Positions 49,745 through 51,892 of a DNA stretch of 64,000 bases are shown here, piece by piece; within the stretch, counting starts at the first letter, position 1, and the number at the start of each line of letters is the position of its first letter. Made by a program: the position numbers and the translations under genes. Source of the DNA: Hydrogenovibrio marinus. Lineage in GTDB: Bacteria > Pseudomonadota > Gammaproteobacteria > Thiomicrospirales > Thiomicrospiraceae. The stretch covers positions 248,001 through 312,000 of the forward strand of contig NZ_AP020335.1 in the NCBI RefSeq assembly GCF_013340845.1, written 5' to 3'. The notes under the pieces are model-generated. The model had not been told where the DNA came from. It searched no databases and worked only from the letters and a program-made list of their open reading frames with translations.

Positions 49745-50437
49745 ATGCACGAGTCTTTGCTGTTCACCGCATTGATGGTTGGCTTCCTTGGCGGTGTGCA
49801 TTGTTTGGGGATGTGTAGTGGTGTTGTCGGCACTTTATCTTTTAATCTTCGTCCCGAGGTGCAATTGAGCCTGTGGCGAATGTTTCCGTATCAGCTCGCC
49901 TATAATTTAGGGCGGGTGACGAGTTATGCGCTAATCGGTGCTTTGTTTGGTTGGTTAGGACATACGGTAACTTCTTTAGCGACTTTCTTGCCGGCACAGC
50001 AAGCATTGCAGATTTTTGCTGGTGCATTCATGCTCGCGTTGGGCTTATATGTTGCGGGCATCTGGAATGGCGTGGTGGTGGTTGAAAAGCTCGGGACTTT
50101 CATTTGGAAGCGTCTTCAGCCAGTGGTTTCCAAAATGACTTCGGTGCGAACGATTCCTCAGGCTTGGCTATATGGCATGATTTGGGGCTGGTTGCCATGT
50201 GGTTTGGTTTATAGCATGGTGATTATGGCGATTTCGGCTGGGGGTGCGCTACAAGGTGCCGCTGTCATGATTGCATTTGGGTTGGGAACGATGCCAAATC
50301 TGCTATTGATGGGGTCTTTTGCATTTTTCTTCACACGCTTGTCGCGTAATCAGCGAGTGAGACGTGCGGCAGGTTTTCTAATTATGCTGATGGGGGCGTG
50401 GCAAATCTGGTTGGCAGTGTCAGTACACGTTTCATAA
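49745..50437 (+). CDS. TauE/SafE-DsbD-like permease (UrmA/UreH family)
   Basis: 230 residues, six membrane helices. The paired cysteine motifs GGVHCLGMCSG near the start and GWLPCGLVYS in the middle are those of the DsbD-like sulfite exporter/UreH family, often linked to copper delivery or cbb3 oxidase maturation. Whether it moves electrons or metals cannot be told. It follows comM by 14 bases. The inverted pair of dispersed repeats lies directly downstream. Confidence 0.85.
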   Translation: MHESLLFTALMVGFLGGVHCLGMCSGVVGTLSFNLRPEVQLSLWRMFPYQLAYNLGRVTSYALIGALFGWLGHTVTSLATFLPAQQALQIFAGAFMLALGLYVAGIWNGVVVVEKLGTFIWKRLQPVVSKMTSVRTIPQAWLYGMIWGWLPCGLVYSMVIMAISAGGALQGAAVMIAFGLGTMPNLLLMGSFAFFFTRLSRNQRVRRAAGFLIMLMGAWQIWLAVSVHVS

Positions 50438-50462: not shown

Positions 50463-50481
50463 ACCCAACCTGGTAGATTTT
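50463..50481 (-). repeat. dispersed 19-bp repeat, copy 8 (left arm of inverted pair, 17/19)
   Basis: On the minus strand AAAATCTACCAGGTTGGGT, two changes from consensus. It faces copy 9 and forms the left arm of a long stem. Confidence 0.75.
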
Positions 50482-50521
50482 GATTAAATGAAGCGCTCGC
50501 CGCCCGAAAGGGTAAGGCGAG

Positions 50522-50540
50522 AAAATCTGCCAGGTTGGGG
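50522..50540 (+). repeat. dispersed 19-bp repeat, copy 9 (exact, right arm of inverted pair)
   Basis: Exact consensus followed by more G residues, directly downstream of the tolC stop on the opposite strand. Confidence 0.8.
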
Positions 50541-50548
50541 GGGAAGGA

Positions 50549-51892
50549 TTATTCGTTATCGTATTGCTTTTCAGCATCAACAAAGCTGTATTGAATGGAT
50601 AAGACATTCAGCAACTCACCTGTCGCCGCCAAAATGCGATATTTGGCAATCAGTTCATCCGCTTCATTGTTAATCAAAGTACGCAGGGCACTGGTATATT
50701 CGTTTTCCGTGTTCAGTAAATCCAGTAGTGATCTGCGCCCCAAGTTGAACTGCTTGCGGTAACCGACCAATGTCTCATGCGTTAGCTTGATGTGTTTGTT
50801 GATATAAGGGATTTGATCGCCGATGTATTGGTAGGCGTTCCAAGCATACCTCAGGTTTTCAATCACCTGACGACGACTGTTGTTGCGCACTTCTGTTGCT
50901 TGCATGTATTCCGATGAGGTTCTCTTAACTTCCGACGAGTCGCGCCCCCCGTTGTACAGGTTATATTTCAAACGCAACATCGCTTGCATATAGTCGTTTT
51001 CGCCCTTGATGCCGGAAAGGTTGTTGTTAAACGTCTTTTCCACTTCAAGGTTGATGGTTGGATAGTAGTTCTTATCACTGGCGTCATATTGTGCTCGGGC
51101 CGCAGCGACATCCGCATTTGCAGACTCTAGAGTCGGATGGTTTTGCATGGCGATTTTGGTTGCAGCATCCAAGGACTGAGGCAGAGTGTATTTGAATTTT
51201 GGTTTGATTAGCGAGTTGTCCGGCTGACGACCCAAAATGCGTTGAAACTTTGCCAAAGCATCATAGTAATTGTTTTGTTCTGATCCGAGGTTGGATTGTG
51301 CCAAGGCAAGACGCGCTTCTGCTTGGTCAACCTCAACTTGGTTACCAATCCCTGCTTGGTTACGCTTCAGGATTTGATCATGAATTTTAAGGTGAGTGTC
51401 CAAGCTGTCTTTCGCTAGCTTCAACAGTTCTTTTTCTTTTAGCAGGTTGATATAGGCAGTTGCCATATCCAATGCGACCGTGTTTGCAGCGGCTTGAGCT
51501 TTGTAAGCGGCAGAATCTTGACGGTATTTTTGACGTCTGACTTCTTCTTGTGTCGCAAAGCCTTGAAACAGGTTTTGTGTCAGTTTGATGGAACCTTCCT
51601 GACGTTCAAGTCCGTTGCCTTGGTTGTCGATGCCACCTGAATAGCCTTGTTTGACTTCTTCATAACCTATCCCGGCACTGAGGTCTATGCTAGGGTAGTA
51701 ACCACCTTCTGCAGAACGAACCTGTGCTTGAGTGGCGCGGAAGGCTTTGACTTCTTTACGGAATTCGGGATTGTGGACGATGGCATCTTCAATCGCCTCT
51801 TTTAGGGTCAGTGCATGTGCAGATGGACTCGTGAGTAGACCAGCTGATAACAAGCCAAGATGTAAATAGATAAGTGCGTTTTGGAATCTCAT
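50549..51892 (-). CDS. TolC-family outer-membrane channel of a type I secretion system (LapE-like)
   Basis: 447 residues. Signal peptide (IYLHLGLLSAGLLTSPSAHA) then the OEP repeats: LTLKEAIEDAIVHNPEFR, GIGNQVEVDQAEARLALAQSNL and QFNLGRRSLLDLLNTENEYTSALRTLINNE. It forms the outer-membrane tunnel for the LapB/LapC exporter. It is the last gene of the leftward Lap module, nine bases after the LuxR-type regulator gene, and ends close to the repeat-pair stem-loop. Confidence 0.93.
   Translation of the reverse strand: MRFQNALIYLHLGLLSAGLLTSPSAHALTLKEAIEDAIVHNPEFRKEVKAFRATQAQVRSAEGGYYPSIDLSAGIGYEEVKQGYSGGIDNQGNGLERQEGSIKLTQNLFQGFATQEEVRRQKYRQDSAAYKAQAAANTVALDMATAYINLLKEKELLKLAKDSLDTHLKIHDQILKRNQAGIGNQVEVDQAEARLALAQSNLGSEQNNYYDALAKFQRILGRQPDNSLIKPKFKYTLPQSLDAATKIAMQNHPTLESANADVAAARAQYDASDKNYYPTINLEVEKTFNNNLSGIKGENDYMQAMLRLKYNLYNGGRDSSEVKRTSSEYMQATEVRNNSRRQVIENLRYAWNAYQYIGDQIPYINKHIKLTHETLVGYRKQFNLGRRSLLDLLNTENEYTSALRTLINNEADELIAKYRILAATGELLNVLSIQYSFVDAEKQYDNE

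Follow-up and report, generated by a model that had tools for sequence, protein, structure and literature searches.

The 76-nt element that separates two convergent genes in the 64,000-nt stretch of DNA analysed here (the window) is probably a 3'-end hairpin shared by both genes and, as judged from its sequence, formed by two inverted copies of an uptake-sequence-like repeat. The window lies in a 2.49-Mb Hydrogenovibrio genome (G000); G001 denotes a close relative of this genome and G004 a sister species of the same genus. Pair, strand and gene-context statistics were obtained from an 852-kb sample of G000 (34% of the genome), and the pair and dialect statistics of G004 from 400 kb, with the gene calls behind the gap and context counts made by a crude codon-usage method. 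The element and its two neighbours are listed in Table 1. The gene labelled as a UrmA-like permease in the preliminary description encodes a membrane protein of the PF13386 (DsbD_2) type.

Table 1. Features of the convergent gap and its flanking genes (positions in the window)
Feature	Position	Strand	Basis
Upstream convergent gene, DsbD_2 family membrane protein (PF13386)	49745..50437	+	Domain match
Left arm of the hairpin, repeat copy AAAATCTACCAGGTTGGG (A-flavour)	50464..50481	-	1 of 394 genome-wide copies
Nested 36-bp hairpin unit AAATGAAGCGCTCGCCGCCCGAAAGGGTAAGGCGAG, between the two arms	50486..50521	+	Folding, repeat family
Right arm of the hairpin, repeat copy AAAATCTGCCAGGTTGGG (consensus), then GGGG	50522..50539	+	Sequence match
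Downstream convergent gene, TolC-like outer membrane efflux protein (PF02321, OEP)	50549..51892	-	Domain match

The two arms are 94% complementary over 18 nt and are separated by 40 nt. The head-to-head pairing over 17 bases that had been claimed for these copies was confirmed, since they are inverted and form 17 Watson-Crick pairs out of 18, the last being G-U in the plus-strand transcript or C-A in the minus-strand transcript. The second stem reported between them is also real, with 10 pairs at 50496-50521 (CTCGCC-GCCC / GGGT-AA-GGCGAG), but it belongs to a separate 36-bp repeat family and is not a mere spacer. The minimum free energy of the fold is -46.3 kcal/mol on the plus strand and -38.6 kcal/mol on the minus strand, versus means of -24.1 and -20.1 for dinucleotide shuffles (z = -6.7 and -6.4, respectively), and none of 200 shuffles was as stable. 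The DsbD_2 gene stops at 50437, 26 nt upstream of the left arm; tolC stops at 50549, 9 nt beyond the right arm. The 76-nt element is a stable hairpin directly 3' of a gene, as expected of a terminator. As to the U-tract also expected there, the terminator scan gave nothing at the stem between the DsbD_2 gene and tolC; the strand of the DsbD_2 gene has no U-tract and that of tolC only a weak UUUCUU.

The arms belong to an abundant family. The pattern AAAATCT(G/A)CCAGGTTGGG, searched with up to 3 mismatches, has 394 copies in G000 (183 on the plus and 211 on the minus strand), 10 of them in the window, against 3 for the same pattern reversed. In the 852-kb sample, the edges of the motif are sharp, with 18 well-conserved positions followed by a weak G/T. 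The copies in this sample are divided 63/67 between the strands, and the sign of the GC skew is the same throughout, a combination that speaks against a polar motif such as Chi or KOPS. Unpaired copies are found inside genes in 44 of 86 cases, in either strand (same sample), and degenerate partners beside single copies show no clear excess compared with random positions. Over-representation on both strands, lack of polarity and presence both within and between genes are all properties of uptake sequences. It can be added that the 18-bp motif contains CCWGG. Among the open-licence literature we found no relevant paper on this motif or on uptake sequences in Thiomicrospira or Thiomicrorhabdus.

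Other inverted pairs are common in the genome. When perfect cores are considered genome-wide, 15 head-to-head and 15 tail-to-tail pairs are counted; with looser cores, the 852-kb sample contains 22 close inverted pairs, their copies being separated by 112 nt or less, and direct pairs under 500 bp are absent. The enrichment between convergent genes that was to be checked proved strong: 17 of these 22 pairs are located in convergent gaps and 5 in tandem gaps, with none in divergent gaps or inside genes, while convergent gaps represent only 44 of the 367 gaps of at least 60 nt (p about 3e-12 by count and 7e-10 by gap length). The 10 pairs found in G004 are likewise all inverted, with no direct pair, and all lie 3' of a gene (3 in convergent and 7 in tandem gaps). 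Downstream of head-to-head stems the T content is at background (2.4 of 8). In tail-to-tail pairs, A- and T-runs lie inside the motif itself, and this configuration may fit an intrinsic terminator better. Pairs and canonical terminators appeared to be mutually exclusive in convergent gaps (1/17 versus 20/41, p = 0.002). We do not count this as independent evidence, because the 13-153 nt left over in pair-bearing gaps (median 33) offer almost no room for a second terminator; control gaps trimmed in the same way have one in 9% of cases.

The comparison of the gap downstream of tolC is more telling. G001 carries the same composite as G000, G004 a pair with a short loop, in the G004 dialect, and G008 a single copy of its own dialect (AAAAATCGCCAGGGGTGG), while G002 and G011 present a canonical GC hairpin with an A-run and a T-run. 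Nothing obvious was seen in this gap in the remaining genomes. The apparent exchange of an ordinary terminator for a repeat pair at the tolC locus is, in our opinion, the one observation that argues most strongly for a 3'-end role of this pair. The earlier proposal that the pair serves as a terminator can be kept as a positional and comparative inference, but not in the sense of a hairpin followed by a U-tract.

The strongest indication that the repeat is recognised comes from its dialects. In G004 the motif reads AAAATCTGCCAGGCTGGG, with GCTGGG. Of the 59 G000 copies that could be mapped through their flanks to G004, 51 are still present there, and at 49 of these 51 conserved copies position 14 has changed from T (G000) to C (G004). 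The flanks of the conserved copies are mostly 68-85% identical between the two genomes, and just 9% of control 18-mers from the same regions were kept with 0-1 mismatches. In intragenic copies, the shift reads as an asparagine-to-serine replacement at the same site (for example PNLADF/PSLADF). More distant relatives usually lack the motif at the orthologous site but align there without a gap, which suggests substitution and not insertion. Species dialects that are uniform within each genome are a further property of uptake sequences, and the genome-wide T-to-C shift is a concerted dialect change of the kind that a recognised uptake-type motif should undergo. Without a sequence-specific reader, it is hard to see how hundreds of scattered sites could have changed together. 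The assignment of the repeat to the uptake class, for which the pair itself had been put forward as the best argument, is supported, but better by this shift than by the pair.

In other genera of the family the commonest motif is a palindrome, ACCAGGCCTGG. Many genomes (e.g. G005, G034, G056 and G081) contain 160-780 copies of it per strand, versus 0 or 1 for the reversed control, and some others lack it. One of the latter, G032, from another genus, is rich in a different palindrome, ACCGGCCGGT(AA). The palindrome ACCAGGCCTGG and the G000 repeat share no positions: both are present in 2 gaps and one alone in 7 and 3 (p = 0.19). Since positions are not shared, we infer the common descent of these two motifs from the AAAAT...CCAGG resemblance only.

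We propose that a receptor with sequence specificity would recognise each single copy in double-stranded DNA, natural transformation being the simplest setting, and that this reading would keep the copies uniform and let the dialect drift in concert. Inverted pairs would have been co-opted from this recognition repeat as RNA 3'-end hairpins: copies facing each other downstream of genes would give a hairpin that ends transcription or blocks 3' exonucleases. As the head-to-head form has no U-tract above background, it is not filed as an intrinsic terminator, and it would probably act by Rho-assisted termination or by 3'-end protection. Regarding the uptake machinery, the ComEC and ComEA models score over the cut-off in G000, a ComM-type gene is located in the window, and PilQ model matches are below the cut-off. 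ComEC is also found in organisms for which no uptake sequences are known.

The repeat could instead be the site of another genome-wide DNA-binding protein, involved in nucleoid or chromosome organisation or HIP1-like, the pairs still being 3'-end hairpins. Any sequence-specific reader would suffice for concerted change, the palindrome ACCAGGCCTGG of other genera fits a dimeric binder, and CCWGG lies within the motif. A methylase as the reader, however, would require 5 bp and would not fix 18. In addition, the inverted pairs after genes, the copies within genes on both strands and the one-base differences in dialect between sister species jointly match the DUS and USS uptake sequences (PMC3630211, PMC1852404), and we consider a binding protein of this other kind rather unlikely. 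The pair at tolC could also be a classical bidirectional intrinsic terminator, as its very stable stem between convergent genes and the canonical terminators at the same place in relatives would suggest. The composition of both strands beside the stem and the negative scan speak against it, as does the missing T enrichment after head-to-head pairs generally, and this reading is an unlikely one.

Stems without U-tract after genes, with a tandem hairpin unit within, also recall REP/BIME elements, and the pairs could be mRNA 3' stabilisers only, the repeat spreading as a hairpin element. This is improbable: about half of the single copies lie partnerless inside genes, orthologous copies have been substituted in place and not moved, and the Y1/RAYT transposase was not found in G000. 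The same points mark the distance from REP/BIME as a known system, which shares with the present one the hairpins downstream of genes and the tandem hairpin units but does not have outer arms that also occur singly inside genes. Finally, the arm ends CCCAAC...GTTGGG resemble the R boxes of an integron attC-like site, for which the pattern is RYYYAAC/GTTRRRY. The match is superficial. The copies are dispersed over the genome, mostly as singles or in the opposite configuration, many of them are intragenic, and no cassette array was seen; such a site can hardly be envisaged here.

Our preferred reading, an uptake-type repeat whose inverted pairs serve as 3'-end hairpins, has precedents. Kingsford et al. 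reported that close inverted pairs of uptake sequences are enriched between tail-to-tail genes in Neisseria and Pasteurellaceae (PMC1852404), and inverted DUS pairs between such genes have also been described for Neisseria elsewhere (PMC2397512). Frye et al. found that related species have DUS dialects one base apart, which inside genes leads to predictable amino-acid replacements (PMC3630211). The Hydrogenovibrio repeat resembles the neisserial DUS in being an abundant short motif on both strands, with inverted pairs at gene ends and one-base dialects. It differs from it by its unrelated sequence, its conservation over 18 bp instead of 10-12, and its lower density, about one copy per 6 kb (394 in 2.5 Mb); moreover, the two pair configurations are equally frequent in G000 (15 and 15), whereas Neisseria favours the one opposite to head-to-head, with terminal T-runs (PMC1852404). 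Some loops here also hold the 36-bp hairpin unit. With the USS of Pasteurellaceae the repeat has in common an A-rich start, occurrence on both strands and inverted pairs at terminators, but its core differs from AAGTGCGGT, the family is another one, and the uptake role is here a proposed one. The very frequent palindrome ACCAGGCCTGG of the related genera is reminiscent of HIP1 of cyanobacteria; unlike HIP1, the G000 motif is not palindromic, nor does it share places with the palindromic form.

In the open-licence literature consulted, Neisseriaceae and Pasteurellaceae are the only families for which uptake repeats with sequence specificity are described. The family of Hydrogenovibrio might be a third, independent lineage of uptake-type sequences with several dialects, some of them palindromic, in which in addition a 36-bp unit colonises the loops of pairs, inserting and multiplying there; we put this wider proposal forward tentatively. 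If it is true, uptake sequences would extend to free-living sulfur oxidisers. The one-base difference between sister species at nearly every orthologous copy would then be a natural experiment on the joint change of a receptor and its hundreds of sites, and the old debate on how uptake sequences originated (drive versus selection) could be put to the test. It would also be another case of uptake-type repeats serving as transcript 3' ends.

The nested stem belongs to a 36-bp hairpin unit of its own, which would have entered the loop between the arms. The unit family (AAACGAAGnACTCGCCGCCCGAAGGGGTAAGGCGAG) has 16 copies at 12 places in G000, two of these places having triplets in tandem inside a repeat pair. 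Among 26 distinct unit sequences, 98% of the stem cells are paired; compensatory changes (C-G, A-U, G-C) are seen at one stem position, so that covariation rests on that single pair. The Rfam search gave no family match up to E 5. A Y1/RAYT transposase (PF01797) was considered as a driver of the unit and rejected, none being found in G000, nor in G004, G005 or G006. The unit is located in the loops of inverted pairs in G000, G001 and G004, and at one locus it is present in G001 (L274) and absent in G000 (404659). In G005/G006 the outer repeat does not accompany the unit, which instead sits at two distinct positions of another repeat, with GAAA flanks each time. The unit has the look of a small hairpin that is mobile or can expand. 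The repeat that hosts it in G005/G006 is dispersed and roughly 150 bp long (GTCGTAATCA...TACGAC...CTTGTGAAAACAAG). In G001, contigs C1 and C12 end (L266 and L275) within tandem arrays of this unit, which suggests that these arrays are too long for assembly.
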